NCBI GenBank assembly: GCA_900095095.1
Contig: FMBT01000391.1
Location: 1 to 64,000, forward strand
Direction: 5' to 3'
Origin: Fragilariopsis cylindrus CCMP1102
Lineage: Eukaryota; Bacillariophyta; Bacillariophyceae; Bacillariales; Bacillariaceae
Length of the DNA stretch: 64,000 nucleotides
Shown piece by piece: positions 16,047-61,300 of this stretch. The notes under the pieces were generated by a model. The model searched no databases. It was given only the letters and a program-made list of their open reading frames with translations, and had not been told where the DNA came from. A program made the translations under genes and the position numbers. Every line of letters begins with the position of its first letter. Position 1 is the first letter of the stretch.

Positions 16047-16562
16047 GTTGCTTAATTCCAAAATCACCTTCAGTTGACCACCCCTACTACCCGATAAGGC
16101 AGCCACACCTAATCTACCAAACATCAACATACACATACAATTCTACAAACATATAATTCTATAAACACAAGACATCATCGAACAGGTGTCATACCCTGCT
16201 CTATTTACAACCATATCACCACCAACGAGTTCTATTTTCAAATCAAGTACAAGAGGAACCGGCCTACTACTACAATTGAAGAGGTGTTGATACTATTACA
16301 TATCATTTACAATCACCACCATCGAATCACCATACATATATACATACATACATATACACACCATCACTGTCGTTCTACCGAAGTTGTATTATTCTTCACT
16401 TATCGGAGGCGAGTTTAAAGACGTTATAGTCTGCTATACATATCTACAAAAAGGCAATTAGCTAGATTAATAAAATATACTTATATGCCTTATATATATT
16501 TATGAGTACCTCATCATATATATATACATATATTTATACTACATAGTAAATCAATGAGTTAA
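16047..16562 (+). other. 3' untranslated region of the retroelement
   Basis: This is AT-rich DNA after the second frame. The last 150 bases (16407-16562) match 53603-53715, sharing CTATACATATCTAC, TAGCTAGATTAA and ACATAGTAAATCAATGAG. That identifies it as a reused 3' tail. A TTAA at 16559-16562 is the target of the adjoining MITE. Confidence 0.6.
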
Positions 16563-17146
16563 CAGGATTCAGGTTATAAGGTATTTTGCGCGATTTTTCA
16601 CTAGTAAAAAACACGCGATAATTTTCATGAAAAAAAAGATGAAAAAAGATGAAAAACTTTGGTATAAGCTTAAGAGACGAAGACAAAACCAAAAGTACTT
16701 AAGATTTGACGCATGTAAGGATCGAACTAACGTCCACACATTCATTTGAGGTGGTTAGTGACCAACTGATCCGTATGAAGAGTTACGTTGAGTCACATCT
16801 ATTCCTAAATATTTTGAGTATTTATAATTTAAAAAAATCGCGCAGAAAACAACTTAGAATATTCCACACGCTTTTACTACTGCCCGGTTCGATCCCTGCA
16901 CCTCTTCGCGAATTTTCCCAGGAGGCTCTTCCATAATTAATTTTTACGGGCTTATTACAGCGTAGGTGCGGACCATACAAAGCAAACGGGACTTCTATTG
17001 AGTATATAAAAAGACACGTGCCCTTATTCGGAGACGCGCTGTGTCTCAATAGGGGGGTACAGGTCCATTTTTGGAGGGAAATATGCCCCTACAAAAAAAA
17101 CACCCCAAAAAGTGGCTCGCCGTGGCGAGCCATAACCTGAATCCTG
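16563..17146 (+). mobile_element. TTAA-flanked MITE, copy 1
   Basis: This 584-base element has perfect 15-base terminal inverted repeats, CAGGATTCAGGTTAT at 16563-16577 and its complement at 17132-17146. It is bounded on both sides by TTAA (16559-16562 and 17147-17150), the target duplication typical of piggyBac-type transposases. It has no transposase frame. The right part (about 17030-17100) with CTCAATAGGGGGGTACAGG matches copy 2 in reverse. The unoccupied paralogue is at 53.7 kb. Confidence 0.85.
16719..16772 (-). promoter_or_regulatory. tRNA-like A box / B box pair inside MITE copy 1
   Basis: On the minus strand CGGATCAGTTGGTC (A-box-like) is followed after 31 bases by AGTTCGATCC (B-box-like). 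The spacing matches that in tRNA genes. The surrounding DNA does not fold into a clean cloverleaf, so this is read as a decayed tRNA or Pol III promoter module. Confidence 0.45.
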
Positions 17147-17444
17147 TTAAATTAAATTAATACATACTGTATCATAATAATCTAGAATAACAACAGTTCT
17201 ACAAAGTATACTCTCGAGACCCCCCTGCCGCTCTCTTGTGTATTCCCACACTGCCGCTCTTCTATGTATTCCCACAGCAAGTACCAACTTGTACTTGTAG
17301 ATTGTACAGTCTATACGAATTCAATATATATCATAAAACGATAAAGCACAATACAATCCTCATCAATCACAGCAGGCAATTTCTGTTCTGTTTGCATTAG
17401 ATACCGAGCGAGACTTGGCAACTAAAAAAAAAAGTAGATAAATA

Positions 17445-18522
17445 ATGGTGCACCTCCCCCTACAAAAAGGATCTGATAGCAGCAGGAGTGCATCGAGATT
17501 CACCGCCGCTCCAGGAACAGCATATCGTCAGGGCGGTACAAGTTACAGCAGTAGTAACAAGCAGCAGCAGAACGGTAAAAAGAAGAAGAATATACTACTG
17601 AAATCAACAGCAGTGGGTTTACTGATAGTGGCAATCTTGACGCTGGAAAAGTTTCAGACGTTTCAGATGTTGTGGCATATTTTTGAATCGGATCTCGAAA
17701 CAAGCAGCAGCAGGAGCAACATCAACGTCAACAAGAACAGAAATGAAGACAAGAACATCAAAGATACCATCGCACCTTTACCAGCGCATTCACCAGCACC
17801 TTCCCCAGTACATTCAGCCCCAATAAACAAGCATTTTATGTGGGAGGACCTAGATCTCTCATCTAAAATGAAGTGTGGATATATATAATAAGTGCTTCAT
17901 ACCATCCATTTCTGACAATTAAGTAGGGTATCTAATCGCAAAAGGTATGGAAGAATTGGAAGACATGATCAAGGCAACAGAAGTTGCACTAGAAATCGAA
18001 AGAGAGTACGGAGCCAAACACCTATACATTACAGATGAGCCACCCTTCGTTGTATTCATGCCTGAAGAAACAAGGTCTTGACTGAACACAAGAAAAGGAA
18101 AAAAAATCGTTTTTAGCTCATCAGTTGTTGTGCAACAAATGAAGGCTGCAAACGATCCTTCTTTATTCTTTGAATGCTCCCAATTTAATTTACGTAGAAC
18201 TAAACGTCATTTGCCCAGCTTTGCATCAGCCGTGGTGGAGAAATATGAACTAGTGGGAGAAAAAGATGAGTTCAAAAGGAATATAGTCAAGGAAAGAAAG
18301 ATGTTGAAAATGATGTTACATGACAAACCTGAGTTAGGAACAGACCTTCAAGCATTGATCAGTACAAAGGGTGAATTGTTCTTTATTGATTTGGGTTCAC
18401 ATGCTGGTTGGAGTCAAAATTGGAAGGAACTATGGTTAAAAAACACGAAGATGCCTGACCCCAAAGAGTGTGATGAGACTTTCGACGCTATCGATGAGGC
18501 ATTGAATGAGAGGGTGCTATAA
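17445..18522 (+). pseudogene. Decayed gene for a type II membrane protein of unknown function
   Basis: The first frame (17445-17888) encodes a basic, Ser/Gln-rich N-terminus, a membrane segment near residues 53-66 (STAVGLLIVAILTL) and a Pro/Ser-rich linker ending at MKCGYI. Similar-quality coding sequence continues in a different frame from about 17890 (KCFIPSISDN, VGYLIAKGMEELEDM, GAKHLYITDEPPFV) to the stop at 18522 (LISTKGELFFIDLG). That part is interrupted by two stops, at 17926-17928 and 18078-18080. One frameshift and two nonsense codons in a clearly protein-like stretch argue for a host pseudogene. An intron could remove the first stop but not easily the second. The family is not recognised. 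Confidence 0.55.
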
Positions 18523-19717
18523 TGGTATAGGTTGGTAAGAAGCTAGATGCTGTATAAGAAGCTAGATGGTGGGGTTTAAAGTAGATAAAAGTTGCTTTGA
18601 ATGAATACTGTACGTGGAGCGAAGTGTTAGCACACGACGAAAGTCTTTCTTTTATCAATCGGCATATGAAAAACATAATTTATCAAAATTAGTACTGTTA
18701 ACTATCATACTGTATATCGAGGAAGATAAGCGAAAAAGGCTCGTCGTGTCAACACTCAAAATTGGCTTCTTCTTCATCAACTAATGTTCTATTTTTATTT
18801 TTAGTACTTAACGTGAAGAATCGGATCTAGCTATTGTGATACGAATGCAAAGTAAAACACTTCTTTCGTATTTCCTCCGTGCGACGCTTGTTTCGTACGC
18901 GCTATCGTTTGAAAATTTTGCCCGAAATTTGCAAGGAGGATGAGGGAAACTTGTGACTTTAACCCTCTATTTTGTGAGTAGATAATATTTTAAGGTTTTA
19001 GAAAGCTTTTACAAACGCTAAATTTTCAAACGATAGCGCGTTCGAGTTTAACGTTGCAGAGGAAGTACCGGTGGTAAAAATGTTTTAATCGAATGAATGT
19101 AAGAAAGTATCGAATCTTCGATTTTACTCGAAAGATTCATTACTCAGTACTAGTGTTGTACCTTTGTTTCGTTTTTTCTTTTTAGAAAAAGAGAGGCGAA
19201 CTGCACCAAATGCATTGCATTAATAATTGGTCAGTTGCTTGTTCAACGCGTGTGTCAACCAGTTGTGTTCTTTCTTCAACGTTCAATCTGTTTAAAAAAA
19301 AATTCAAAAAATTTAATAATATTATTAAAATTAGGTCGTGTAACTAATTACCTTATTGCTCTTTACGAGAGTAATCGAACTCTTTTTCAAATTCCTTACT
19401 AATATCTACCGTATTTTCTTCACTGCCTCCGGAACAGTAATCATACTCTGATAGATAACTTCAGGTGACATTAAACAATCAGCATACAGTACAGTATCAC
19501 CCACCCAAATATTCATTTCGAAACGCAGCTAGCGGCCACCCCATCAAAAAAAGTCGAACGAACGAACGATTGAATGAGAAAGCATAGAACTGTACAGAAC
19601 TACAGTTCTCATAAACATTATATATCGAGTGAGTGAGTTCGTACTTCACATTTTATATTTTACACTTCTACCAACTTGAAAGAACCCCCCCCCCCCCCCC
19701 CGACAACAACAACAACG
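18523..19717. other. Intergenic spacer
   Basis: No gene is seen. The stretch contains the inverted repeat at 18898-19040 and a run of 16 C at about 19686-19701 just before the next start codon. Confidence 0.5.
18898..19040. repeat. Inverted repeat with 21-base perfect arms
   Basis: CGCGCTATCGTTTGAAAATTT at the left end and its exact complement at 19020-19040 enclose about 100 bases. It may be a small foldback element or a transcribed hairpin. No target duplication was found. Confidence 0.75.
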
Positions 19718-20428
19718 ATGATAGCTTCGGTCTATGAATTTGCGTCAAGTTTGTTATGTTATCCTTCTATTATGAATGACAATAATGATAATGATAGTTA
19801 TTATTATGATGATGATGTTGATGAGATTGAACAAATCGATTTTTGTAATCCAAAAATTGTGGAATTAACATTACAACGTGATTTTTTACTGACAAAATTA
19901 CAAGAATTTGTGGATTCCACAACACCGAAACAAGCGGAACGTGCCATAAAAGCAATGGAACGTGAAACAACAGCATCAAATAATTCGAATGATTTAACAA
20001 ATGAAAAAAGATTGCTTAAATTTCTAGTTCGAGCTGGTACATATGTAATAATACGTGATGCTGTACAATCTAAAGATCGATTTCAGATAATAAAGGAGGA
20101 GACGGTAGGGACGGTAGATAGCAACAAAGAAGAAGAAGAAGAACGGAATGACGATGTTGGTGATGGCGATAAAACAACGTCTACAACATCTACAACTAAT
20201 ACAACACCACCAACAGCACCACCAACTGTTATTACAGCTGATACTAATGCAACAGCACCAACAACAACTGCAACTACAACTACACGTAGTATTTATTATA
20301 ATACAGGGTTATCACCATTAATAGCAACTCCATTACTAAATAAATTAAAATATTATTATGATGAAAGAGAAAAACGAAAAGAAAATAATAAAAGAAGAAG
20401 AAAATCATTATTAATAAGTTTTTGGTAG
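19718..20428 (+). CDS. Hypothetical acidic/Thr-rich protein
   Basis: The frame runs 236 residues from the first ATG at 19718 (MIASVYEFASSL). A non-ATG upstream extension through the C run is not used. Residues 20-45 are Asp/Asn/Tyr-rich. Residues 46-130 are the only globular-looking part, with FCNPKIVELTLQRDFLL, KQAERAIKAMERE and LLKFLVRAGTYVII. An acidic stretch, a Thr/Ala/Pro-rich linker and a very basic C-terminus (EKRKENNKRRRKS) follow. I do not recognise a family. The ordered amphipathic segment suggests a small helical domain. Confidence 0.55.
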   Translation: MIASVYEFASSLLCYPSIMNDNNDNDSYYYDDDVDEIEQIDFCNPKIVELTLQRDFLLTKLQEFVDSTTPKQAERAIKAMERETTASNNSNDLTNEKRLLKFLVRAGTYVIIRDAVQSKDRFQIIKEETVGTVDSNKEEEEERNDDVGDGDKTTSTTSTTNTTPPTAPPTVITADTNATAPTTTATTTTRSIYYNTGLSPLIATPLLNKLKYYYDEREKRKENNKRRRKSLLISFW

Positions 20429-21611
20429 GTAGGGTAAGGTCATGGTAATAAACGGTCTTAAGTACAACACCATGTAATTGTAGTTGAATAAACTAACTAT
20501 AAATGTTTGAAAGTTAGTACCGTGCAGTATAACAAAAGAGAGACTGCTGACTAACTTACCTGACTTGGTGGTGAAAATGTGATGTGGTGGGTGTGATGGG
20601 GTGTATCTGTACGTATCTGTATCTTGTACGTATATGTAATGTAAGGTAATGTATTGAAATTACATTCTATGATATAAATGCAATAGTAGTAGTAATAATA
20701 ATTATATATTATGTTTATGAATGAACGAATTGAAACCTGCTACTACTACAATACTACTACTACTACTACTAACTAGAATCAATAAATTCTAGGTAGCCAG
20801 AATTATCGATCCGAATCCTCCGTCACCGCCACCGTAAGCCCCTCTACAAAAAGACCTTGTTGCGAGCCAACGGATATAATTACGAACAGCAAACACACAG
20901 ACGACAACATACGCGTTGTTGCTTACTGGGTGGTGTACCGGAAGTGAAATTGTCAGTCGCCGTGTGGAAATTGCTATCATTTTCTTCGTCGACGGACCGG
21001 TCGAGTCAATCGACCGGTGATAGTGATGGTGATTGGTACGTCGGTACTACCCTTAGTATTATTAGTAGTAGATCTGTCGTCTGAATCTTACCTGTTATCA
21101 TCATCACTTACTTTCTTTGTTTGCCAAATCTGAATCGAATCTTCCCATGCATCTCGAATCGTGACTTGATTGACCTGCGATTGATTCATTCGATCACGAG
21201 TGAATCGAATCTTGCTTGAATGAAAGAGTTGAAATTGCAAAACAACAACAATATAATAAAGAAGATGCCAGCCATCATGTATGTATGCATGCCGATACAG
21301 TACATATACGTAATGAAAGTTTCAAGAATACCTAGCCATGCATGGTGTATGTTGGTTATGTGATTGATACTGCACGAACAGACACTGTCATATTAAACAT
21401 CAACCATCAAACTATAGTACACGTATCATATCATAATATCATATTGTACAATACTGTAGGAGACGATATACACAGAGCATATTAAATTCTACGATTTTTA
21501 TTATAAATAGAATAGAATAAAATGAATAAATTTAGTTGTCATTCGTGTGTTTTGCTATTCTTTATATTTTTGTTCAGTCTCTGTTACATATATTGCATTG
21601 TCATTTTATAT
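20429..21611. other. Convergent intergenic spacer
   Basis: This lies between two genes that end toward each other. It has TAC/GTA runs near 20740-20775. Open frames around 20789-21084 exist on both strands but show no composition or motif that supports a gene. Confidence 0.5.
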
Positions 21612-22513
21612 TTATTGGATAGGATTAAATGTACCTAATGTACCAGCCTTATTATCCATATCAGGACGTCTTGCTGTTAATTGTGTTTCTGCATCTGCTG
21701 GATCATATCCAGGTGTTAATACAGTTGGAATACAATGAATAACACCATTTTCACATATAATATTTGTTGGATATGGTGTACCATATGTTTGTCCCACATG
21801 ACCAATTAATGCTATGATGTTTAATATATGTTTTATTATGTATTAAATAGAGTGAAGTGAAGGAGTGCAAAAGAGCGAAGAGAAGAAAATGAGTGTTGAG
21901 TTCTATTGTTGAGAGATGCCGTACGATTTTGAAAACGTCCAATGTTATTGTCGTCCGATATTCAAATTCAAAAACACAATAAAAGTAACAATTTATAGAT
22001 GTAATATTTAAAAAACAAAAACAAAATCTTACCATCATCCACATATGCTTTTCTAAATTCTTGTTTTGCATTTAAATTATAATTTGGATTTAATGTTTCT
22101 AATGAACCAAGTAATTCATCCGAATAAATATCACCTTTAATAATATGATATCGTAATGTTTCTTCATCTAACATACCATTGTAGGCACAGACTGCCGAAT
22201 CAGTGGGTAATAATAATGTATACGGACCGAGGCCACGCAATTCATTGGCTAATCCACATTGATCTAATGCCGAACGGAACATATTAAAATTATCATATTC
22301 TTTAATTTCAATTTCTTCATGACCAATAATAACACCTTCTGGACCCCAACATACAGACGGTCCTTCTAATGAACCCATTGTAGACCATATATTTGGCGCC
22401 GCCATTAATGTTGTCGTCGTCGCCTTTGATGATGATGACAACACAGGTGCAAATGCTGATACGCTTGTTGCCATGGCAACAAGCGCAGTAGTAGTTTGAA
22501 CGAAGAGTTTCAT
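21612..22513 (-). CDS. Plastid-targeted fasciclin (FAS1) domain protein, two exons
   Basis: Exon 1 is 22513-22033, exon 2 is 21811-21612, and the 221-base intron has a GTAAGA donor and a CATAG acceptor. The join gives VDDALIGHV and a 226-residue protein. Residues 1-20 are a signal peptide followed by SA|FAPV, the cleavage motif of diatom plastid preproteins. The FAS1 domain follows, with NFNMFRSALDQCGLANEL, the hallmark GPYTLLLPTDSAV, DEETLRYHIIKGD and the C-terminal ENGVIHCIPTVL. FAS1 domains mediate adhesion or protein contacts. A plastid or periplastid location is inferred from the presequence. The upstream in-frame ATG at 22603 is rejected because it would put 30 residues before the signal peptide. 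Confidence 0.85.
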
Positions 22514-23320
22514 TGTTCTGTTAAAAGGGATTGTTATTGCTTTTTGTATAGTACTGTAGCTAACTAAGTAGTAGATTTTATGTGAAGCAATGCATGATGT
22601 CATTCATGTCATGGTGAAGCAAGCAAAGCACTTTTAAAAAAATTAAAAAAATCTCGCCGCCTTGTTCGTACGTGTGTTCGACTGTTGTACTGTTGTTGCC
22701 GTTACACATAGATTTTTTTTAAATTCACAAGAGCATTAGAAGAGGTCACGTCGTGCAAGAATGACGTTTTAATTTTGTCGATCTTTGATTGCTTCTTGTG
22801 TCTGCGTGATAAAATAATACTTATTTTTTGTTACGCGTGATCATAGTGGTAACGTTACTAGTACGTACGTGATTTTAATTATCTTCCAGTCGTGATACTG
22901 TACTCCAATCGATTCGATTCGATTGATCATTCGATTCGATTCGATTCATTCGATTTGATTAAATCGATTCTTCGATGAAAAATCAGTCATTAATCAATCT
23001 CGATTTTCTTAGTCACGAATGACTACAGAACTGTGTAAGTAAGTATGCGCGATCAATCAACAAAGTAAAGGGCCCTGTGGAATACTGTTAGGAAAAAACT
23101 GACTTAAAATCGAAGAGAATGAATATAATTTATTACTACATGCTTTTCTTGGCAAACGACTCCAGCATCACAAAAATGATAATACTTATTGTAGAAAGAG
23201 AGTAATAGAATGAATGAATGAATGAATGGATGAATGCATGAACGAATGAATAAGTAAATGAATGAATGATTGTTTTAAATTAGTTTATTCCTCGTGATTG
23301 ATTGATTGATTGATCTTCAT
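22514..23320. other. Intergenic spacer with GATTC and GAATG microsatellites
   Basis: ATTCGATTCG-type repeats occupy about 22910-22980. (GAATG/GAAT)n lies at about 23210-23275 and (GATT)n at about 23296-23312. No gene is present. The segment next to 22513 is the fasciclin promoter side. Confidence 0.55.
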
Positions 23321-25171
23321 TTAATATTGTTTTGCATGATACCCAGATGATTCAATTTCTTGAATACTTGCTCGTCTTAAGTTATCTATCGTATTACGTG
23401 CACTATTGGTATTATTCTGTTGAACGCTGGTCCTACTATTGCGACTAGAGCGACGACCACGAAATGATTGATTCGCCTGGTTATTACTATTAATATTATC
23501 ATGCTTACTAAGTCGACGACCATACGATGATTGACGCAATGATTCGTGTATCACTTCTTGTCTCACTAATCGTTTCCAATCTTCACGCCGAATTGTCCAA
23601 TCACCATCTATGTCATGATTTTCATCAAATAAACTTGCTAGTATACCACATAATGACTTGCGATGTTTCTTAATCTTGATGTCATTGGATGCTAATACAT
23701 CCATTAATTGATCCTGATCAACGCGCCCATCACTGCTTGCATCTAGTGTATCAAATATTGCTAATAGTTCGTTTTCTGGTACCATTATCATCATTAATGA
23801 TGATGCATTTCCATCATCATAATTATTAGTACCATCGTTACCTTCGTTATCATTATCGTCATCACTAGTCACACGTTGACGTTGGAGAGTAATTTTCTCG
23901 AATTTTATATTGAATTTACCAATACCAAATAAGGCATCTAATAATGATAATTTATGTGGTCCACACACAAAGTATAAAATGATTGAACAACCCATAGCAA
24001 AGAAGAATGCTGCATTCATAATCAGAGCATGACTACCTTTAAATTTAGACGCCTCATAACCAGTCAATGAACCAATCCAAAAACTTGTTGCTAATCCTGC
24101 TAATATATATAATTTCCATAAATTACTTCTATTGCCTCTTAAAAACTGTCCAATAAATAAACCAATATCTGTTGTTGTTCCAGTTAAATGTGTGGTTCTT
24201 ATCAAATTTGCTGTATACATTGATGATATACCATTCATAATACCATTTCCAATTGCAGTAAAATAAAATTCACGTACAGAATTATGAAGTGCTGCAATTG
24301 CACCCATCGTACTAAAAAGGGAACCAATCAAAAATGTAGGTCCATATCTCGGTGATAACTCGAATGCAACAGGACGTGGATTCATAATGGATGATATACA
24401 TGCTCCAACCATAACACTAAAAAATGTACCAACATGGAACCAATATTCATCAAAATCACCTGTTTTTATCCAATTGAAAGAATGGAGAAGGAATAGGAGA
24501 GATAGAGGGAGACAGAGAATGATTGGATTGGATGGACTTCGTTGAATTGTTACTTGGATGCATTTGAATACAACAATAAAGGCCATAACACACAACGCTC
24601 AAGAATCAAATCAAATCAATAAGAATATGAAATACTTCTATAATTGAATACGGGTAGTAGAGCACTTACCATTACCTAATGAAATAGCACTTAAGGTATA
24701 TAGCCCTGTAACGCCTGCAACAGATTGCTTATTAGTAAGCATTGTTCTGTTGATATGAAGATATCCGCTTAAACATACACCATTTGAATATCCTGCAATA
24801 AAAGCCATCGTCAAACCCAACAAAACAACAAATAAATATTCTCTTGATGAAGTTTCATGAAAGAAATTTGCCTTTGGAAGATTGGCGGTTTCGTTGTCGA
24901 CGTCATCGTCTTCTTTTTTTCCGTTTGTGTCAGCTTTTTCGTTGCCTTCTTCTACGTCGCAGATTGCGACTCTTATCTTAGTCTCCCAACGATCGCCATC
25001 GCCATCGCCATTGTCTTCATTGCCTTTGCCGGTGTCAACTACCACGTTATTCCCTTTTGGCGGATCGCTATCATCCCTATTGTTCTGACTACTAATATTG
25101 TCGTCTCGTCTATCGGGAATCAAAAACATATTCGAATCTTTTTGTTCCTTGTCATGTTCGTGGTCCGCCAT
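23321..25171 (-). CDS. DUF1275 (YoaK-like) membrane protein with C-terminal EF-hand pair, two exons
   Basis: Exon 1 is 25171-24670, exon 2 is 24459-23321, and the 210-base intron has GTAAGT and AACAG ends. The spliced protein has 546 residues. About 100 acidic N-terminal residues precede six or so membrane segments beginning YLFVVLLGLTMAFIAGYSNG. The DUF1275 signature is seen as GIMNGISSMYTANLIRTT followed by HLTGTTTDIGLFIGQ. After the last membrane segment come two EF-hand-like loops, DASSDGRVDQDQ (position 12 is Gln, not Glu) and DENHDIDGDWTIRRED. A basic Ser/Asn-rich tail ends the protein. DUF1275 proteins are poorly characterised; bacterial ones are proposed transporters. Calcium control through the EF-hands is inference. 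Confidence 0.8.
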
Positions 25172-45897: not shown

Positions 45898-45901
45898 TTA
45901 A

Positions 45902-46447
45902 CAGGATTCAGGTTATGGCGCCAAGGTTGGCGCCACTTTTTGGGGTCAATTTTTTATGGGGGTATATTTCCCTCAAAAAATGGACCTGTACCCCCCTATT
46001 GAGACACAGCGCGTCTCCGTTCAACGTCGTGTGCTTTCTTATTCAGTGAAAATACGCAAAATTTCTTTGTATTGGACGCACCTACAGCGTTTATAAGAGG
46101 CAATAATAATAATTTGGAAAGAGCCATGTGGAATATTCGCGGTTTGCGCTAAGTATCACGTTCAGTATGCCTGCGCGATTTTTTTGAAAATTTAAATACT
46201 CAAAATATTTGTTTACTACGAATTGTAACTATTGATGTGGAATAGTTGGCAATGCCCAAACGGCCGTAGTAGACAGCCCTGGGTTCTAGTTGCCATAGTG
46301 TCATATCTTATATTATTTTGTCACTCTCTTCACACATATTCGCACCTCCAAAGATTTTCATCTTTTTTTTGGAAATTTCTTCTGCAAATTAACGCGTGTT
46401 ATTAACACGCGCAAAATAGCAAAAAATTCCTTATAACCTGAATCCTG
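45902..46447 (-). mobile_element. TTAA-flanked MITE, copy 2
   Basis: This 546-base element has the same 15-base inverted termini as copy 1 (CAGGATTCAGGTTAT and complement) and TTAA at 45898-45901 and 46448-46451. Its left interior (CCTGTACCCCCCTATTGAG, near 45985) is the reverse complement of copy 1's right interior, so it lies in the opposite orientation. No transposase frame is present. Confidence 0.85.
46239..46290 (+). promoter_or_regulatory. tRNA-like A box / B box pair inside MITE copy 2
   Basis: GGAATAGTTGGCA (A-box-like, preceded by T) is followed after 29 bases by GGGTTCTAGT, a weaker B-box match. The pair lies at the equivalent place and relative orientation to the pair in copy 1. 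Confidence 0.4.
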
Positions 46448-46451
46448 TTAA

Positions 46452-47703: not shown

Positions 47704-47704
47704 T

Positions 47705-51878: not shown

Positions 51879-52957
51879 ATGATGTATACTAGATCCAATA
51901 ATAAACCAGCAACAAGAAGAGTTCGTATCAACGCTTTATTTTATTGCATATCTTTATTGTACAGTTGTTGCTTCTTTATGACAACGACAACGACGATGGC
52001 GTTTACATCATCGACGACAACGAATACTGGTAGTAGTAGTAGTAATACGATTGTATTATTTGCTGAAAAAAATCAACCATGGGATGTAATACGATTTGTA
52101 CAACAATCATCTAAATTTGTTAGTATATTTCCTCAACAAGGTACAAAAAGTAGTAGTAGTAGTAGTAAAAAAGGAACGATAATACCAGGAACAGTATTAT
52201 GGAAAGCTGGTGCTACTACTACTAAAGAGAATGATTTTGAATTTGCACCATTAGATGATGTTGTTATGGGTGGTGCATCAAAATCAAATTTTAATACCGG
52301 TACAGGAAAATGGAAAGGTGTAGTAACTGATGCAAATAATGGTGGTTTTGTTGGTATTAGATCAACACCTATCATTGATTATGATTTATCAAAATGCAAT
52401 GGTATTGAATGGTCAATTCTAACTACTAATACAAAAGATAGTATGAGACTTAAAGTTGTTTTACGTGATACAACAGACTTTAATGGTATTGGTTGGACGA
52501 CGAGTAAGGATACAAACAAAAAATCATCATTATCATCAAAATCATCCACAATAACAACATTTAAAATACCATTTGATAATAAAACATTGAAACCATCAAA
52601 ATTTGCAAAGATATTAACTGAAACTGATATAAAAGAACCATTTAATACAACAAATATCAAATCATTTCAATTAACATACTCTAAATTTGAATATGATGGT
52701 ACGTACGTTCGTCTCTTTGAAGTTTTCGTCGTCGACTCGACTCGACTCGACTGTGCTTTTTTTCAATCTTCGATGTTTGTTCATCAAGATCCTTGTCTTC
52801 TTTTATTTTACGAATATCACCACAGTTACTTAACTTGCCTTCTCTCTATTTACTTTTCTCGTTTTTTGTTCGCTTCATTTCATTAATAGGTATATTGAAT
52901 CCAAAATTTAATACAGGTGAATTTGAAATACAATTAATTGATATTAAGACATATTGA
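51879..52957 (+). CDS. Plastid-targeted CIA30 (NDUFAF1-like) domain protein, two exons
   Basis: Exon 1 is 51879-52698, exon 2 is 52890-52957, and the 191-base intron has a GTACGT donor and an AATAG acceptor. The protein has 295 residues. A signal-peptide-like segment (ALFYCISLLYSCCFF, 19-33) is followed by MAFTSS, which fits a diatom plastid presequence. The CIA30 fold shows FAPLDDVVMGGASKSNF (121-137), GGFVGIRSTP, GIEWSI and DSMRLKVVLRDT. CIA30/NDUFAF1 assists assembly of mitochondrial complex I, while related plastid proteins in algae and plants act in photosystem or RNA functions. The plastid role is inferred only from the presequence. The last exon adds ILNPKFNTGEFEIQLIDIK, which completes the final strands. 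Confidence 0.85.
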
Positions 52958-53267
52958 ATAATAAACATTAAAATCTAAATATATATATATATATAAAGTA
53001 TGAAAGAAAGTGAATACGATATGATACGACAATCCCCACTATTATACTGCTTGTACTGCTCTAGCTACTACCGGTGAGTCATGTCATGTTGCGACTGATT
53101 AATTCAATTCAATTCGATTCGATTCCATGAAATAAAACTGGTACCTTATACAAATACATAAACATAAAACATAGAACATTAACACTTCATGATCCATCCC
53201 TAAAAAAGTAATACTGTGAAATGGGAAAAAGTTAAACGGAAGATGAGCAACTAAACCAGTCCACAAT

Positions 53268-53555
53268 ATTGACCGGTCCGGTGGATTAAGTACGAAATCT
53301 GTGCGAACATCAAAATCAATCGCAGAGGACCTCATACCGCTGGTACTAAAATTAGAAAAGCATTTAGAAAGAATAAAGAATACAACATTCATGGATTAAG
53401 TAATGAGTCATTATTATCATAAACGACATGAAAGAATTCTTACGTCAAGTTGGTGACAGTAGGTGCTGTAGCTCTATAAGTAACTAGCCTAAGAATCTGA
53501 CATAGCCGTCGCGTATGATTGCGTTAAATCATTTCATTCCTTACGTCACCTTGAA
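53268..53555 (+). repeat. Dispersed direct repeat flanking the methyltransferase-like gene, left copy
   Basis: It shares AATCAATCGCAGAGGA, ACTAAAATTAGAAAA, AATGAGTCATTATTATCATA, TACGTCAAGTTGGTGA, ATCTGACAT(A/T)GCCGTCGCG and ATTGCGTTAAATCATTTCA with 55090-55630. The copies are about 2 kb apart in the same orientation. Confidence 0.7.
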
Positions 53556-53602
53556 AAAAGGGGCGCTTTTTCCTGCCCCATATATTGGGCAATAGCCTGA
53601 AA

Positions 53603-53715
53603 GCTGTTAAAGGCGTAATAGTTTGCTATACATATCTACTTGGACACTAGCTAGATTAAAAAAAATATACATATATTTATATATATATATCACATAGTAA
53701 ATCAATGAGTTAAAT
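53603..53715 (+). mobile_element. 5'-truncated copy of the retroelement 3' tail
   Basis: It aligns with 16407-16562 through TTTGCTATACATATCTAC, TAGCTAGATTAA and CACATAGTAAATCAATGAG, with an AT-rich gap of about 40 bases. It then continues directly into TTAAATTAAA with no MITE. It serves as the unoccupied site for MITE copy 1. Severe 5' truncation is normal for LINE copies. Confidence 0.7.
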
Positions 53716-53780
53716 TAAAATGAATTGAATTCTGTTGTGTTGTTAGTCAGGTATTTTTGCACTTGTTTTTGTAATCATAT

Positions 53781-54848
53781 TTAATCAATATTATCTTGAT
53801 ATTGCATCCACATATCATATATCATTTGATCAGTTGTTGTTGGTTTGCGTTGATATACACATAAAGTATCAGCAGTAGTGTCAACGTGATCTAAAATAGA
53901 GTTTAGAATTTGATAATGACCGCGTTTGGGATCATGTGCTACTTTAAAAGACGATCCTGTTGAATTTTGAACCAAACAATCATGTAATAATACTATTGGA
54001 CCAACATGATGTGTAGTAGTACTTGAACCACTATTACTTAATAATGCACTTGAACGTGACGGCGCACTTGCTGAGCTCGAACTTGACGTCCCACTTGATG
54101 CAGCATGTAGTAGACTAATTAACACACATGGGAATCTATACCGGCCATCGACCATATATACATCAAATGGTTTATTTTTTTCGGATAGTAATGATGATAC
54201 TTGATAATTAAATTTATTTTTTAATAATGTTCTATTTGGATACCCCCAATCTTTTGTTGGACCAATATCAGCAAAATAAAAACGAAAATAATCTGGTGCT
54301 AATGTTCTTGCATAAGACACATATGCTGGATCAGAATCAACACCTGAATATCTTGGTACACCAACATATGCAGCAATTGATGTTGATTCACCTAATCCAT
54401 ATTCAAATATAGAATTTGCTTTACCATAAATTTTACCTAATGCTATACGATCATTATCTGACAATCCACCAGATGTTGTAAGTTTCATTGCTTTCCATTC
54501 ATTAACATCTGTTGGAAATTCTTTTCTTTTACTACTACTACTGAGAGTATTATCAGTATCAGTATTGGTTGTTGACGATGTTGCAATTTCAAATAGATGT
54601 TGCGCTGCCTCATCAAATAATGATGATGATAATGTTGACGTTGGTGATGATACAGCATTGTCATCGATTGCACGAGTAAAGCTCGATGATAATAGTGTAA
54701 AGTTTGAAAGTAATAAAAAAGATATATTACATACCAGTAATAACTTATTGAATGGTGATACACGACAGTTACTTGAAGTATCAATATAATTGCTGTTGCT
54801 TTTGTCGCCACTACGAGAATTTTTCTGCATCATCATGATTGTTTTCAA
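53781..54848 (-). CDS. Type II membrane protein with methyltransferase-like (Rossmann) domain
   Basis: The single exon encodes 355 residues. A membrane anchor lies at about 35-57 (KLLLVCNISFLLLSNF), then a Ser/Thr-rich stem to about 105. The domain starts KEFPTDVNEWKAM. It has a glycine-rich loop FEYGLGESTSIAAYVG (148-163) and an acidic end of strand 2, YSGVDSDPAYVSYAR, which resemble motifs I and II of class I SAM-dependent methyltransferases. Later parts are FDVYMVDGRYRFPCVLISL and IVLLHDCL. A Ser/Ala-rich insert splits the fold. The substrate is unknown; a Golgi or ER lumenal location is inferred from the anchor. No homologue was searched. Confidence 0.7.
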   Translation of the reverse strand: MKTIMMMQKNSRSGDKSNSNYIDTSSNCRVSPFNKLLLVCNISFLLLSNFTLLSSSFTRAIDDNAVSSPTSTLSSSLFDEAAQHLFEIATSSTTNTDTDNTLSSSSKRKEFPTDVNEWKAMKLTTSGGLSDNDRIALGKIYGKANSIFEYGLGESTSIAAYVGVPRYSGVDSDPAYVSYARTLAPDYFRFYFADIGPTKDWGYPNRTLLKNKFNYQVSSLLSEKNKPFDVYMVDGRYRFPCVLISLLHAASSGTSSSSSASAPSRSSALLSNSGSSTTTHHVGPIVLLHDCLVQNSTGSSFKVAHDPKRGHYQILNSILDHVDTTADTLCVYQRKPTTTDQMIYDMWMQYQDNID

Positions 54849-55089
54849 GCCACAAACGTAATTAGCTAACCGTTTTGTCGTTGTCGTTGTCTCTGTTGTT
54901 GTTATTTACTATGTACTCAGCACGTGTTATATAAAGAGATAAGTTTATGTTAAATTGTGTAATTTACAAATTGTTTCAACCTTATTTTGTCCACTACCGT
55001 ACACTCATCAGTACACACAATTTCGCGAATTAATGATGTAAATGCGAGAGCGATTTGAAATCTGAATTCCTGCATACAAACGGAACATT

Positions 55090-55630
55090 GACCGGTAACT
55101 CTTACTGTGAAAATTAAAATCAATCGCAGAGGAAATTTTACCTCATCCCTCGTAGTATTTATACACGTTGACTGGAGGATTGTATGTTTGAACTCGTGTA
55201 AGACACGCGCTTTTCATTTTTTACACTTAACGACTGCTGCCCAGCATGAGTCGTGCGTGATTTATTTTTTATTAGCTACTTATGATTGATTGATTCATTC
55301 GGGGGAGAGTCATGGCATACACTAAAATTAGAAAATCAGACATTATTCGCGATGTAAATGTGGTCGATTTGAAATCTGAATTCCTGCATGGGTTAAGCAA
55401 TGAGTCATTATTATCATAAACGACATGTATGATTTCTTATGATTGCCATTAAATCATTTCAGTTCTTACGTCAAGTTGGTGAAGGTGCTGTAGTTTAGTA
55501 GCTGGCGTAGGAATCTGACATTGCCGTCGCGTTGGCGGTTCGCATTTTCAGTACGAATTACTATCGCCCATTAGAAATCTTGTCTTGGGAAAATTATGAT
55601 TGCGTTAAATCATTTCAGCTATTCAGATGA
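55090..55630 (+). repeat. Dispersed direct repeat flanking the methyltransferase-like gene, right copy
   Basis: This is the longer partner of 53268-53555, with insertions (for example after the CCGTCGCG segment near 55530) relative to the left copy. Confidence 0.65.
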
Positions 55631-55991
55631 TATTGCAACTAGGCAGTTATAAAAGATAGGGTTCGAAGTTCGCGGAATGTATGTTCTTTTTTTGAATGCA
55701 GTCTCTGAAGTTCGCGGAAATGACCTTGCATCGATAATAATATCACTTTCACTCTGTAACATAATATTATTAAGTAAGCATGATATAATAATATGGCACC
55801 TGTAACATATATGTTACGCTTAACAGAAGTCGAACTGATTGAAGCGCGATGAAACATACTAAACATACTACTGCCATGCAGTTTTACTCGATACAAAGAG
55901 CGAGTGACTCGTCGCATACTTCAACCGCTTTCAAAAATGGCATGTTAAAAATGGCATGGCGAAGGATTGTCAGAGCATGCGTTTGGCACAA

Positions 55992-56296
55992 GCCATTGAA
56001 GCGCGATAGAAATATGACATATTTAAGCGAATGTAAGCAAAAATGCAGCGGGCACAAGCCATTGAAGCGCGATGAAATATGACATATAAAGCGAATGAAA
56101 GCAAAAATGCAGTGGGCACACGCCATTGAAGCGCGATGAAATATGAGATATGAAGCGAATGATAGCAACAATGCATCGGGCACGCGCCATTCCATTGAAG
56201 CGCGATAAAATACGAGATACGAAGCGAATGAAAGCAAAAATGCAGCCATTAAAGCGCGATAAAATACGAGATATGAAACGAATGAAAGCAAAAACA
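55992..56296 (+). repeat. Minisatellite, about 64-base unit, five copies
   Basis: Units start with GCCATTGAAGCGCGAT at 55992, 56058, 56122, 56186 (with an extra CCATT) and 56245. Each continues AAATA(T/C)GA(C/G)ATA, AAGCGAATGAAAGCAAAAATG and GGGCAC. A partial unit sits near 55836. Because unit lengths vary, several minus-strand frames stay open through the array; these are not treated as genes. Confidence 0.85.
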
Positions 56297-56469
56297 TGCC
56301 TAAAGAAAACAGTCCTCGTGAAACAACTGAGCTCTACCAAAATTACAACGTAATATAGACTAAGAAAGTTTATCACATTATATTCATAGTTAAGTTTACA
56401 ATACAATTACAATTGTATCAAAATAAGGTTACAATATCTTTAAGGTTTCCAGTGCAACTATCCTCAACA

Positions 56470-57532
56470 ATGAATACATCCACCATTTTTGTCTTGGGTT
56501 TGTTATTAGTGGCGTTTCATCCAGGCGTCCAGGCAAAAACCGTACGTGAATTATCAGCCTCTTGTGCTTTACATGATGCATACGTGATGCAGTGTTCCCA
56601 TTAAACTAACTTAATTGCGTTCTTATTTATTTTGTCTCTCTCTTCTTTCTGTCTCTCCTCATACGATATGATATGATACATATACGATGCAATGAACTAC
56701 GATACGAAACAATCTATACCAACATTATGAACGAAAGCCCGATCAACCTCGTGGTAAATGTGAAAATTCGGATGCATTCCGATTTAAAGGCGATGCAAAG
56801 CGAACATGCGATTCATTTGTTGCAAAAAAACCGAACAAGAGATGTAGAAAGAAACAACTTGGTACCAACATCAAACTTAAGTTCTTTTGTCCAGCAACAT
56901 GCAAGAGGAAGTGTAAAAAAACTGATTCACCAACATCTTCACCAACAGTTGAACGTAAAGCTTGTGAAAATCAGGATTCATTCCAATTTAAAGGTGATGA
57001 AACCAAAACATGTGACTTTGTTGCAGGGAAAAAAAAGATATGTAAAAAGAAACAACCTGGTACTGGTAAAAAGGTAAAATTCTTTTGTCCATCAGCATGC
57101 AAGAAGAAGTGTAAAAAGACATCTTCACCAACATCTTCACCAACAGTTACACGTGGCGATTGTGAAAATTTGGATTCATTTCGATTTGAAGGCAATGCAC
57201 ACCGAACATGTGATTCATATGTTGCAGCAAAACCAAACAAGAGATGTAAAAAGGAACAACCTGGTTCTGGCACAAAGAAGAAACTTAAGAAAGTTAAGTT
57301 CTTTTGTCCAGCAACATGCAAGAGGAAATGTAAAAATACTAATTCACCAACAACAACTCCAACAGCATCACCTACAGCATCACCAACAGCAACACCAACA
57401 GTGTCTGATAGTGAAGTTCCTACATCTAATCCAACTACCAGTCCAAGTGAATCATCATATCCATCTTTGACACCGTCTGAATCACCATCTGAATCATCCT
57501 ATCCGTCGTCTATGCCTGTACCCAGAAAATAG
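56470..57532 (+). CDS. Secreted protein with three six-cysteine repeats and a Ser/Pro/Thr tail, two exons
   Basis: Exon 1 is 56470-56541, a signal peptide MNTSTIFVLGLLLVAF to QAKT. Exon 2 is 56738-57532, after a 196-base intron with a GTACGT donor and a GAAAG acceptor. The product has 288 residues. Three repeats of about 60 residues each hold six Cys in the order CEN, TCD, (R/I/K)C, FFCP, (T/A)CK and KC. All are rich in Lys/Arg, with near-identical FFCPATCKRKC ends. The spacing is reminiscent of ShK-type or other small disulphide domains, but I cannot assign one. The C-terminal 70 residues are SPT/TPT and PSESSYPS repeats of the kind seen in diatom cell-wall and extracellular proteins. An extracellular structural or binding role is inferred. 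Confidence 0.75.
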
Positions 57533-57638
57533 AGAAGTGTCCGCATGAGTAGAACACGAATAAGAGAAGTGTTATACATATAGAGTCGAAGCAGAATGTC
57601 TATGTCCTTTGAACCGCTAATAATACCAATATATATGT

Positions 57639-57914
57639 ATTAGGCGAAGTGAGTTACGAACAGAAAGTTGTATACAAGGTTACCGTGTAACGCAAGTGTA
57701 ACGCAAGTGTAACGCAATACTAAAATGCCAAGAAAAGAGCAGAATACTTCGATCACAAGAAATGAACTATCTATTTCTTTTATTGTTGAGAAATTGTAAT
57801 AACCATAGACTAAATAAACAAGTGTGTTAATAACAACTTTTGCGTTTGAATATCATCGTTTGTATTGCATTTCAATACCGACAAAAGTACAAAAGGAGAT
57901 CTAATTATATTTAT
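57639..57914 (+). repeat. Shared 3'-flank repeat, copy A
   Basis: It begins TATTAGGCGAAGTGAG and runs through TAACGCAATACTAAAATGCC, AAATAAACAAGTGTGTTAAT and GGAGATCTAATTATATT. It directly follows the Cys-repeat gene and probably includes its 3' UTR. Copies B and C lie at 59335-59527 and 60277-60513. Confidence 0.75.
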
Positions 57915-57929
57915 CAATTATTGAATTAA

Positions 57930-59201
57930 TGATCTACTGATTCACCAAGAGCAACTCCCACTGCTACACCAACAGTGAGTCCAACTTCAAGTCCAACCAC
58001 ACCACCATCTATCTCAGCAAGTTCTGCACCAAGTCTAATCCCCAGTGTAATTTCAAGCACTTCTTCTAGTTTAGATCCAAGTGCGACTCCAAGTCTTACA
58101 CCTAGTAGTGTACCCAGCTCTTCTCCTACTTTTGATCCACTTGGGGTACCAAGCTCTTCTCCGAGCGGTTTGCCCAGCAATGTTACCAGCTTAAATGATG
58201 CACCCACTATCAGTGCTTACCCTAGTTCTGATCCCACAGCTACTGCAGAACCAAGCAATAGCCTTGCACCCAGTTCTCTTCCAAGTCTCTCATCCAGTGC
58301 TGTTCCAAGTTTAATTCTGAGTACTGTCCCAAGTTTTGAACCATGCCTTGCACTAAGTTCTGCTCCAAGTCTTGAACCAAGTACAATGCCCTCAAATGTT
58401 CCAACTGAAACACCTTCCACTACTTTTGCACTTCTATTCTCAGTAGATCCAGATGTTACTCGGGCCGAAATTGTAGAAGGTAAGCCAAACAACCCTCTCT
58501 TTTTCCCACAGAACATTGTCTTTTTTAGCATCAACAATTTTTAACAAATTGTTTACTTGTTTTGTCTTTTTATAGGTGCTCTTGCGACATCAAAATCATT
58601 GGCTGGTTTAACAGCCGCAAGTGGACGCCAACTTCTATCAACCTGTCCAGAACCTGAGGCCGAATGTGATGCAGTAGAAGTTACGTGCGATTTTGAGGGA
58701 GTAGATACAAGTGGTTCTAAATGTTGAAATGTACCATGTACTATCACTGCTCCAGCTTGTTCAGGCTTTGATACTGCAGAAGCAGCAGAAAAAAATGAAG
58801 CTGTAGTAGCTACAGGAGATTATGCTGCAAAGTTAGCAGAAGTAGCAGATATAGTTGCCAAAGTAATTTTGCCTCCCAGTGAGCAGCCAAGTTCTGTACC
58901 AAGTTCAGGTCCAAGTATATCAAGTGCGCCAAGTTCCATCCCCACTGAGATTCCTAGTAGTGTACCAACCCCAATACCTAGTAGCACACCAACTTGTGTA
59001 CCAAGTCAAATTCCAAGTGATGCACCAGCTGTAGCAACTGCAGCTCCATCAACTTCGTCATTCCCTACTGCATCGCCAACTGCACCTCCAACTGAGACTT
59101 CCACCCCTACAAAGTCACCTACTGTTGCACCGGTTTCATCTACTCTTGCACCAACTGAGAGTTCCTACCCTAGTTTTAATCCAACAAGTGATCCAATCTA
59201 G
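57930..59201 (+). pseudogene. Ser/Pro-rich extracellular-type protein gene, 5' end missing and one in-frame TGA
   Basis: The frame opens as STDSPRATPTATPTVSPTSS without an ATG or signal peptide, and runs through PSS/PSL repeats to 58479. A 96-base intron (GTAAGC to TATAG) leads to the second exon at 58576. That exon encodes LATSKSLAGLTAASG and a Cys-containing segment (STCPEPEAECDAVEV, VTCDFEGVD), then TGA at 58725-58727 in the phrase SKC-stop-NVPC, where Trp (TGG) is likely ancestral. After an Ala/Glu-rich helix (TGDYAAKLAEVADIVAK) the PSS/PTE repeats resume to the stop at 59199. The opening resembles the tail of the neighbouring Cys-repeat gene, so it may have arisen by tandem duplication. 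Confidence 0.6.
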
Positions 59202-59334
59202 TATTAAACCAACAAGTGATTTATTGATGTTAGTAGAAGTAAATGTTGTCATATAGTATTGAACTTACTGATAACCAGTTGATGAAGTCGTTACACAAAT
59301 AAGAGAAGTGTCGGCCAAACCGCCTATATATATG

Positions 59335-59527
59335 TATTAGGCGAAGTGATGTTATGAATATCGTTGTGTACAAAGTTACTGTTTACCGCAATACCAAAAT
59401 ACAAGAAAAGACCTGAGTACTAGAAATATTGTAGAAGAATTGTAATAAACATAAACTAAATAATCAAGTGTGTTAATAACAATCTTTTGTGTTTGAACAT
59501 CCGTTACATTGCAATAGTAATAGTAAT
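59335..59527 (+). repeat. Shared 3'-flank repeat, copy B
   Basis: This is a diverged copy following the Ser/Pro-rich pseudogene. It has TATTAGGCGAAGTGA, ACTAAATAATCAAGTGTGTT and TTTTGTGTTTGAACATC. Confidence 0.7.
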
Positions 59528-60276
59528 AGAGCTATCCAAGATATCTACAAAATGGAAACCATCTTTTGGAAGAAATATCTTGTGTTCAAGAAAGGTGAGT
59601 GACCTGGTAGAACAACCACAGTAGTCTTTCGATTGTACGTTTCACAAACAATCTATAATTGTTGAAACAGGATTGTAATAGTCTTACTCTTCTGATCTCA
59701 TTTTGGTCGCACAACAATTACTTCTACGCAAACGCTGCATAAAGCCAGTTTTAGTATTGCGCTCGTTTTCCTACTACATGGAGCTTATGTAGGACATATG
59801 GTTCAGTGAGTAACAACTCTTCCAGCTTTAAGTTGCACGTTTTATCCTATAAACGAGCTGAACAACTTTTTTTTTAGTTCATCTGAACGACAAATGGACT
59901 AGAGATCCAATTATATTTAATTAATATTATTGAATTTACGATCTCGAAAGAAGTCTAATTGCAACAATCTCAAGTCCTAACAAATAAGAACTAGAGAAGC
60001 CATTCAACTGTGAATGAGCCAGCAAGAAGAAGAAGACAAGTCTACAGAAACACGAAGAAGACAAGTCTACAGAAACACTTTCGCTGACAAGAAGAGTGAG
60101 TAACCTGGCAGAACAACCACGAGGAGTCTTTATAGGGTCAGTGAGCAACAACCCTTTCAGCTTTAATAGAAACTTGCAAGTTAGAAGAGTAAGACTATTA
60201 TAATCCTGTTCCAACAATCATCAATTGTTTGTGAAACGTAACGGATTAACAGCCACACCGTTTTTCCTGTAAACGT
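59528..60276. repeat. Spacer of scrambled repeats with a 55-base inverted pair
   Basis: The arm 59639-59693 (GTTTCACAAACAATC...) pairs with 60183-60237, its near-complement. Direct repeats also occur: GAGTGA(C/A)CCTGG(T/C)AGAACAA near 59595 and 60095, and CAGTGAG(T/C)AACAAC near 59801 and 60140. A segment near 59905-59935 matches the end of copy A (GAGATC(C)AATTATATTTAA). No gene is seen. Confidence 0.65.
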
Positions 60277-60513
60277 TATTAGGCGAAGTGAGATAAGGTT
60301 ATCATGTAACGCAATACTAAAATGCCAAGAAAAGAGCAGAATACTTTGATCACAAGAAATGAACTTACTATTTCTTTTATTGTTGAGAAATTATAATAAC
60401 CATAGACTAAATAAACAAGTGTGTTAATAACAACTTTTGCGTTTGAATATCATCGTTTGTATTGCGTTTGCAATACCGACAAAAGAACAAAAGAACCGGA
60501 GATCTAATTATAT
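60277..60513 (+). repeat. Shared 3'-flank repeat, copy C, interrupted by the MITE
   Basis: It is very close to copy A (AAAGAGCAGAATACTTTGAT, AACAAGTGTGTTAATAACAA) and ends at GGAGATCTAATTATAT, where the TTAA and MITE terminus begin. No gene lies directly upstream, so the unit has spread without its gene. Confidence 0.75.
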
Positions 60514-60781
60514 TTAACAGGATTCAGGTTATAAGGAATTTTTTGCCGATTTCTTATTTTTTTACTATTAAATTCATGCGCTAATTTTCCAAAAAAATAA
60601 TTGACTTAGAAAATATAGCCAATTTTCAACAATGTAATATAAGGAATTTTTTGCCGATTTCTAATTTTTTTTACGTGTTATTTTTCCCAAAAAAAAAATT
60701 AACTTGGAAAATATACCCAATTTTCACTGGTTGATTGCTAGATAAAGACAAAATCATTCAGCCTATTAGTTTGCGCTAGAT

Positions 60782-60836
60782 GGACTCGAACAATTGACCT
60801 CAGTTATTAATATTATCTTTTTAACCAGTTCAACCA
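60782..60836 (-). promoter_or_regulatory. tRNA-like A box / B box pair inside MITE copy 3
   Basis: On the minus strand TGGTTGAACTGG (A-box-like) is followed after 33 bases by GTTCGAGTCC, the best B-box match of the three copies. The surrounding DNA again lacks a clean cloverleaf. Confidence 0.45.
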
Positions 60837-60966
60837 AGAACTGTGGAAGATTTTATTACGCTGAAGTTAGAAGAGCGGATTGAGTATATATACCATGAAG
60901 CGCCTAAATTAACACGCGCTAAATACAGTGATTTTCGATCGAAAACAAGATTGATAATGGAAAACC

Positions 60967-61232
60967 GAGTATACACACACATGCTAGGCGGGCGACTTGG
61001 GTGATTCGGGAATTTCGTCGAGCGAAACGAGAATTTTGCGTTTTCCAAAACGCAATTTTCTTAGGGAAGGGCGTGTGTTAAATTTGAAAAAATTTGCGTT
61101 TTGGAAAACCCAATTTAAGACGCGCACTTCCCTATAAAAATTGCGTTTTGGAAAACGCAAAATTCTCGTTTCGCTTGACGAAATCCCCAAATTACCTGAG
61201 TTGCCCTCCTAACAGTATGTGTGTGTATACTC
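60967..61232. repeat. Foldback element of 266 bases with long imperfect arms
   Basis: GAGTATACACACACATGC at the left and its near-complement at the right end frame two arms of about 95 bases. The arms include CGAAACGAGAATTTTGCGTT and its complement. A TTTGCGTTTTGGAAAAC motif recurs in the loop. It has no coding capacity. Confidence 0.8.
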
Positions 61233-61300
61233 AACTAAAGTAGAAAAGAAGATAACGGACATGATCTCCATTAAATAGAGATTATATATTACCTGGTTAA

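Follow-up and report, generated by a model that had tools for sequence, protein, structure and literature searches.

The closest precedent for the transposon family considered here is Pokey, a piggyBac element of Daphnia with miniature inverted-repeat transposable elements (MITEs) called mPok, which uses TTAA as its target and carries ribosomal DNA (rDNA) spacer repeats upstream of its transposase (PMC3849761, PMC3575242). The available passages of these studies also describe tandem insertions at the TTAA of a neighbouring copy, and recombinant copies (PMC3849761, PMC3575242). Passages on the CMITE elements of Acropora corals describe piggyBac-like MITEs that occur in tandem arrays and whose conserved interior is of unknown origin (PMC2872659), and passages on Phaeodactylum tricornutum give 65 piggyBac and 235 MITE annotations (PMC5859163). 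No description of a tRNA-like module in a piggyBac element was recognised in the open-access full-text literature searched, as far as its available passages go. The stretch of DNA analysed here (hereafter the window) comprises 64,000 nucleotides, positions 1 to 64,000 of the forward strand of contig FMBT01000391.1 of the diatom Fragilariopsis cylindrus CCMP1102 (assembly GCA_900095095.1), and holds three copies of a TTAA-flanked transposon family, each with a module that resembles the A and B boxes of a tRNA gene.

The family belongs to the piggyBac superfamily, and its module is a decayed tRNA head found in both the long and the short forms of the element. Our preferred reading, to which we give a probability of about 0.6, is that the transposon and its derived MITEs keep a tRNA-derived internal promoter for RNA polymerase III (Pol III) just inside the right end; judged from the sequence, the module is likely a retained Pol III promoter. 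The MITEs are also different combinations of segment alleles, mosaics of one another. A first-pass annotation of the window had proposed a MITE family with a captured tRNA or SINE (short interspersed nuclear element) head bearing A and B boxes. The profile ranks and invariant positions given below bear out a tRNA-derived module, but full-length elements carry it too, so that it is not private to the MITEs. The copies and their modules are the following.

16559-17150, minus strand: MITE copy 1 including both TTAA (exact ends, sequence, genome family; the left end by the family frame is 17150)
45898-46451, plus strand: MITE copy 2 including both TTAA (exact ends, sequence, genome family)
60514-61553, minus strand: copy 3, what is left of a full-length piggyBac element after rearrangement, with right end and transposase pieces (blastn of full-length element L056)
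16702-16785, minus strand: tRNA-like A/B-box module of copy 1 (alignment; best box pair 15.8 bits, 0 of 30 shuffles as high)
46226-46308, plus strand: tRNA-like module of copy 2, with GTTCTA as its decayed B box (alignment; the copy's best box pair lies elsewhere)
60756-60863, minus strand: tRNA-like module of copy 3, of the full-length type (94% to the full-length module query)

The 15-base end that the first-pass annotation had placed beside TTAA in three copies, CAGGATTCAGGTTAT, is matched exactly at 16563, 17132 (minus strand), 45902, 46433 (minus strand) and 60518, and TTAA adjoins all five sites. Together with TTAA it occurs 80 times in the 67.9-Mb genome; the backwards pattern, used as a control, occurs 0 times. 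DNA searches with copies 1 and 2 returned 49 and 45 matches, counting the queries themselves; many are complete relatives 500-600 bp long. The MITE set used below was drawn from 47 candidates recognised by their ends, less one that could not be oriented, six overlapping or partial copies and L071, which duplicates L063 on a duplicated contig; the resulting 39 MITEs, with L087 (identical to L035) left uncounted, are part of a larger family, for which genome searches list further full and partial copies. The MITEs measure 512-599 bp and share with full-length elements their ends, hairpin alleles and about 150 bp of the left end. As had been supposed, the target duplication is TTAA, which flanks both ends in 52 of 53 elements (39 MITEs and 14 full-length elements). 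Additional evidence came from element-free sites. The flanks of three MITE insertions were joined around one TTAA to give 151-base queries, and the best 40 of 58 candidates were scored; the letters at each site's TTAA were not read. One insertion site, on C767, lies in repeated sequence of which at least 19 other copies span the junction without the element (150-152 bases, 91-97% identity), and another, on C225, has at least 17 more diverged paralogous copies that do so; for the third, only its own flanks and no element-free paralogue were found among the candidates scored. Given these element-free paralogous sites and TTAA at both ends, TTAA targeting is tested rather than assumed. Some family copies (L008, L063 and L071) have inserted at the TTAA of a neighbouring copy, giving tandem pairs, and contigs C809, C449 and C567 have in common a segment of about 8-10 kb in which nested family copies keep constant distances; the contigs probably represent alleles or a segmental duplication.

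Full-length elements of 3512-3545 bp, 14 in number, were found in the 20 genome regions fetched and examined out of this larger family. Seven carry the ends of the window copies, CAGGATTCAGG, and the others have variant ends, CAGGATTCCTG in three, CAGGATTCAAGC in one and CAGCATTCAAGC in three. A transposase frame of more than 800 amino acids is open in nine of the 14, with a likely in-frame intron inside it (GTATGT and TACTAAC signals, by eye). The protein of L056, the one scanned, matches the piggyBac domain PF13843 at 47.1 bits against a cut-off of 22.4, and 53 matches in the genome exceed that cut-off, not all of them from this family. In the nine aligned frames, L056 included, plausible invariant motifs were assigned by eye (TTDESR, VMDSAY and a DNN or DNNF-type third motif), and the C end appears Cys/His-rich in the piggyBac manner, also by eye. 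A search of PDB sequences with the transposase returned no relevant solved relative. Identifying the MITEs as non-autonomous piggyBac-type transposons, as the first-pass annotation did, is borne out by these partners with the same or variant ends, by the transposase domain and by the element-free TTAA sites; among the full-length relatives it thought worth seeking, seven of the 14 have the same ends, and the domain match is that of L056.

When the copies are aligned, the module lies in the right part of the element and reads toward the right end. All three window copies have both box-like motifs, reading toward the same element end, in agreement with the earlier claim of one relative orientation. 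Profiles of the two boxes were built from 18 tRNA genes of the same genome (of 20 taken from the 63 listed, two long-armed serine tRNAs were excluded, and organellar genes may be among the 18) and slid over both strands of the 39 MITEs. For the B box, the module ranks first of 1160 offsets, with a mean of 11.26 bits, and the next offset, at 3.16 bits, is a B-box-like block on the opposite strand. For the A box, the module ranks second of 1158 offsets with 1.96 bits, behind a minus-strand site near column 109 with 3.5 bits. The best A-B pair falls at the module in 33 of 39 MITEs (the script gave 32; L088, one base outside the cut-off, was added). The spacing between the boxes is 44-45 bases in 21 of these 33, 49-53 in ten, and 39 and 47 in one each, the tRNA profile having 43; in those ten the A-box profile favours a site upstream of the aligned A box, hence the wider spacing. 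Shuffled copies reached their originals on the box pair in 128 of 1170 cases, and for the family as a whole a tRNA-like spacing of A and B boxes is found above chance. In the full-length elements the B box ranks first or second of about 7000 offsets in all 14, and an A-box-like TGGTTGAACTGG or similar motif stands 44 bases upstream of it in 12. These box-profile ranks, in MITEs and full-length elements alike, indicate that the module is derived from a tRNA gene and is common to both forms.

The module was also compared with whole tRNAs. A covariance model of the genome's own tRNAs, run unfiltered on 37 loci, gave 41 matches at E≤10, ten of which lie at the sense MITE module, including four of the best five. 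Pairwise alignment to the 20 tRNAs covered ten pieces, nine modules and one opposite-strand block. The copy 1 module is clearly tRNA-Lys-like (score 33; shuffles average 19.8, and none of 300 is as high), the copy 2 module is not tRNA-like by this measure (score 19, with 198 of 300 shuffles as high), and the remaining pieces fall between, with 0 to 77 of 300 shuffles as high. The fold is gone and the promoter bases are kept, as in SINE heads. Processing of the transposase mRNA at a tRNA-like 3' end was considered and rejected, as the stems are lost. A free SINE still present in the genome was likewise rejected as the source, with room for diverged free copies: all 21 matches to a strict pattern, and all 40 DNA matches scored among 48 candidates, lie in or beside family copies or in the truncated copy L115. 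RNAalifold gave a whole-MITE consensus of -57.8 against a column-shuffle mean of -2.7, but column shuffling destroys the inverted ends, so this result informs nothing beyond the short left hairpin. Two side observations arose here. The opposite-strand B-box-like block, a second T-arm block at columns 245-300 (near 16880-16900 in copy 1), exists as alternative segment alleles in about half of the MITEs (by eye), and eight other covariance-model matches are T-arm fits to it. Contig C419, which is probably organellar, has seven tRNA matches in 16 kb on one strand, among the 63 listed.

Conservation within the module follows the tRNA pattern. In the 51-base span from T8 to A58, compared in 38 MITEs (L094, which is without the A half, was left out of the 38-copy counts), the 13 positions invariant in tRNAs average 0.964 conservation, and the other 38 average 0.679. 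Conservation of at least 90% is reached by 12 of the 13 and by three of the 38 (hypergeometric 3.5e-8, columns treated as independent). The conserved bases correspond to tRNA positions 8, 10, 14, 15, 18, 19 and 53-58, at near-tRNA spacing. In a local comparison of 125 windows over columns 345-475, 13 reach the conservation of the A box and one that of the B box, the box itself counted. None of 38 MITEs has TTTT, the Pol III stop signal, in the stretch that begins 15 bases upstream of the A box and runs to 25 bases beyond the start of the B box; dinucleotide shuffles predict 8.9 that do, and among stretches of equal length taken from across the elements 61% include a TTTT. The corresponding unit of the full-length elements contains it in none of 14. 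Counted from the start of the B box, the first TTTT of the MITEs comes after a median of 34 bases (range 32-81) and the first TTTTT after 71.5.

Evidence that the MITEs are mosaics came from linkage between informative sites of the 39 MITEs. Mean r2 falls from 0.49 for sites less than 10 bp apart to 0.14 for those separated by 40-60 bp and 0.06 for those separated by 160-200 bp; it is 0.05 between 200 and 300 bp and 0.03 for distances above 500 bp, where 1/(N-1) is 0.026; none of 200 permutations was as extreme as this fall with distance, and all four combinations occur in more than 95% of site pairs more than 80 bp apart. When the elements were divided into eight blocks, the adjusted mutual information of block alleles was 0.20-0.39 for the three blocks on the right and reached at most 0.20 for the five on the left; between right and left blocks it ranged from -0.07 to 0.09. 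Even the halves of the module reassort, with mean r2 of 0.40 within the A half and 0.33 within the B half (7 and 17 sites) and 0.06 between them. The full-length elements, the only linkage control, recombine less (r2 from 0.79 below 10 bp to 0.17 beyond 2 kb in 12 copies, two near-identical copies of the 14 being left out), and in the L069 transposase the C end is, by eye, that of the other lineage. A hairpin that follows the left terminal repeat exists in 17 versions among the 50 of 53 elements that fitted the hairpin pattern; at least six arm positions pair in 16 of the 17, two versions are seen in both orientations, and several are common to short and full-length forms. The copy 2 version is the commonest (12 of 50) and is also found in five full-length elements.

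17114-17131, no strand: subterminal hairpin of copy 1, GGCTCGCCGTGGCGAGCC on the plus strand (sequence, hairpin alleles)
45917-45934, no strand: subterminal hairpin of copy 2, GGCGCCAAGGTTGGCGCC (hairpin alleles)

The ends of the elements behave differently from this interior. Of 53 elements, 43 have matching terminal repeats at their two ends, where 21.4 are expected (0 of 2000 shuffles); of the 39 MITEs taken alone, 29 do, where 17.2 are expected (1 of 5000 shuffles). The r2 between left and right end class is 0.48, whereas 50-column bins over columns 51-550 have means of 0.01-0.05 and single sites of at most 0.31. Selection for like ends and end-to-end copying would both produce this pattern.

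On the preferred reading, the layout of the module is, as predicted from its letters, the anatomy of a Pol III unit: an A box followed after some 44-45 bases by a B box, a lack of TTTT that extends 25 bases beyond the start of the B box, and T-runs before the right terminal repeat. The transcription factor TFIIIC and Pol III would still recognise the boxes, most probably yielding a short RNA or, more simply, a TFIIIC-bound patch of open chromatin. Such a patch may keep the right end accessible to the transposase at silenced sites, and the bound factors or the short RNA would then favour the element. Dispersed copies most likely reassort their segments by ectopic gene conversion or template switching. 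Repair after excision is the explanation used for sequence exchange in other DNA transposons; piggyBac excision is seamless and leaves no gap, which makes it a weaker candidate here. The terminal repeats would stay matched because the transposase pairs like ends, as we propose. A stronger version, in which the family depends on the Pol III promoter as a cis part and forms a freely recombining pool whose ends and boxes are held by selection, is put forward tentatively, as somewhat less likely to be right than wrong.

Several observations weigh against a promoter that is retained for use. The best box pair lies outside the module in six of 39 MITEs, window copy 2 included, and ten further MITEs have an A site that scores better than the aligned A box. 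The A box of the full-length elements scores weakly, at rank 40-128 of about 7000. ARAGORN finds no tRNA in the window or in the 14 full-length elements, and the Rfam tRNA model has no match at E≤10 in eight loci or in the copy 3 module. The best module reaches only 14.3 bits under the genome tRNA model, and the genome's tRNAs reach 51.7-72.3 bits under the Rfam model (among the 63 matches listed), a rough comparison because the models differ. The lack of a cloverleaf recognised by ARAGORN or Rfam and so low a best score speak against an intact tRNA gene. The first-pass annotation proposed to test whether the boxes are better conserved than the surrounding DNA; within the module span the invariant positions stand out, but element-wide the boxes do not: the 7-base windows of the A and B boxes rank an unexceptional 116th and 45th of 444 interior windows (a ranking that still used 40 MITEs), because other islands of the MITE interior are conserved too. 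The limits of the TTTT comparison were chosen by the authors, and TTTT comes soon after them, at least 32 bases past the B box start. Since the copies are related, the column tests and the TTTT count overstate independence, and a recent common origin could leave the boxes conserved without present function.

An alternative that we consider unlikely, yet the most serious of those weighed, is that the module survives as a fossil without any function: a tRNA gene or SINE head would have entered an ancestral full-length element in a single insertion and been passed on to the MITEs. The boxes would then look conserved because the insertion was young when the copies split and because gene conversion homogenised it. 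Such an account is consistent with the decayed cloverleaf pairing, with the shared ancestry of the copies and with islands elsewhere in the element that are as conserved as the boxes, and the Pol III activity proposed for the module is read from its sequence. Homogenisation, however, leaves unexplained why 12 of the 15 strongly conserved positions of the span are those invariant in tRNAs. Moreover, the modules of the full-length elements and the MITEs are hardly alignable between the boxes (by eye), and both nevertheless keep a B box about 44-45 bases past an A-box-like motif. Another reading, which we consider improbable, is that the likeness to A and B boxes is fortuitous and that the boxes are sites inside the element to which the transposase or a host factor binds. 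The subterminal position of the module, where piggyBac elements are known to have internal repeats, and its confinement to the TTAA family in the pattern and DNA searches would fit such sites. The left end, on the other hand, has no comparable B-box site, the next-best offsets being at 3.16 bits or less, and conserved tRNA positions at near-tRNA spacing exceed what a single protein site predicts.

For the mosaic structure, the alternative is an artefact of alignment, homoplasy or mixed assembly. Parts of the alignment are gapped, diploidy of the genome is possible, and the linkage control is limited to the family's own full-length elements. An artefact of this kind would have to coexist with r2 values that are high at short range and fall with distance beyond any permutation, and with matched ends that persist across an unlinked interior; the same program, applied to the full-length elements, gives an alignment in which linkage persists over long distances. 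We therefore regard it as very improbable, more so than any of the alternatives for the module.

Copy 3 requires separate treatment. The first-pass annotation described three MITE copies, and copies 1 and 2 are complete MITEs; its third, a MITE of 780 bp ending near 61296, is excluded by the alignment of L056 to the right end and transposase, and no element end lies at that position. The blastn alignment of L056 covers 60514-60628 and 60638-60986, where 60514-60986 is the right end, then 61209-61337 (right-end sequence and the gene end) and 61370-61553 (transposase sequence, from the middle of the gene); the left end has no match in the window by the same search. A DNA search with copy 3 found relatives of the right end, many of them on contigs with a transposase domain close by. 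Since copy 3 aligns to the full-length element, the family is represented in the window by two MITEs and a damaged full-length element. The hairpin of this relic holds an insert, whose arms have matches to Rfam microRNA families below the curated cut-offs.

60987-61209, no strand: nested fold-back MITE of 223 bp, TA-flanked, with long inverted arms (self-inverted match and gap in the L056 alignment; limits by eye)

Other frames adjoin the copies. Near MITE copy 1, a plus-strand frame of 1511 amino acids (9767-14302) has reverse transcriptase-like and RNase H-like motifs (by eye), and is followed by a coiled-coil-like frame of 453 amino acids (14685-16046, plus strand) that adjoins the copy; the two, at 9767-16046, look like a retroelement without long terminal repeats or of another kind. 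Beside copy 3, at 61738-63420 (plus strand), is a copia-type gag-pol frame, which presumably resembles the CoDi elements of diatoms. Frames of the window also bear a plastid-targeting SAFAP motif and PSS repeats, labels that we take to be diatom-like.

Should the boxes prove functional, a DNA transposon of the cut-and-paste kind would have adopted a type of promoter that is otherwise characteristic of SINEs, and this would point to a role of Pol III factors in keeping the ends of transposons open. With copies that are mosaics, it becomes testable whether dispersed copies of a DNA transposon trade sequence fast enough to act as a recombining population, and the paired ends are a natural test of the end combinations that the transposase accepts. 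The parallel with tRNA-derived SINEs, as these are generally known, lies in A and B boxes at tRNA spacing within a decayed cloverleaf; unlike SINEs, the present family moves as DNA, at TTAA and with inverted repeats, and no free copy of its module was found in the pattern and DNA searches. Fischer and colleagues reportedly observed in 2003 that Tc1 copies in Caenorhabditis elegans exchange sequence, and there, as here, dispersed copies of a DNA transposon trade sequence. Tc1 belongs to another superfamily, however, and the gaps left by its excision invite templated repair, whereas piggyBac excision is seamless.

Among piggyBac-related sets, those of P. tricornutum are likewise from a diatom; the available passages give no ends, tRNA-like module or mosaic analysis (PMC5859163). 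CMITE resembles the present family in its piggyBac-like MITEs, conserved interior and tandem arrays, and differs in that the main text, in the part available, mentions tRNA 0 times (PMC2872659). The likeness to Pokey, as far as its available descriptions go, is broader and extends to a piggyBac transposon with host-derived sequence, MITEs, tandem TTAA insertions and recombinant copies. The host sequence is an rDNA spacer in Pokey and a tRNA head here. The recombination reported for Pokey mainly involves copies within 28S rRNA genes; in F. cylindrus, by contrast, the copies are dispersed and the segments of the MITEs are near linkage equilibrium.

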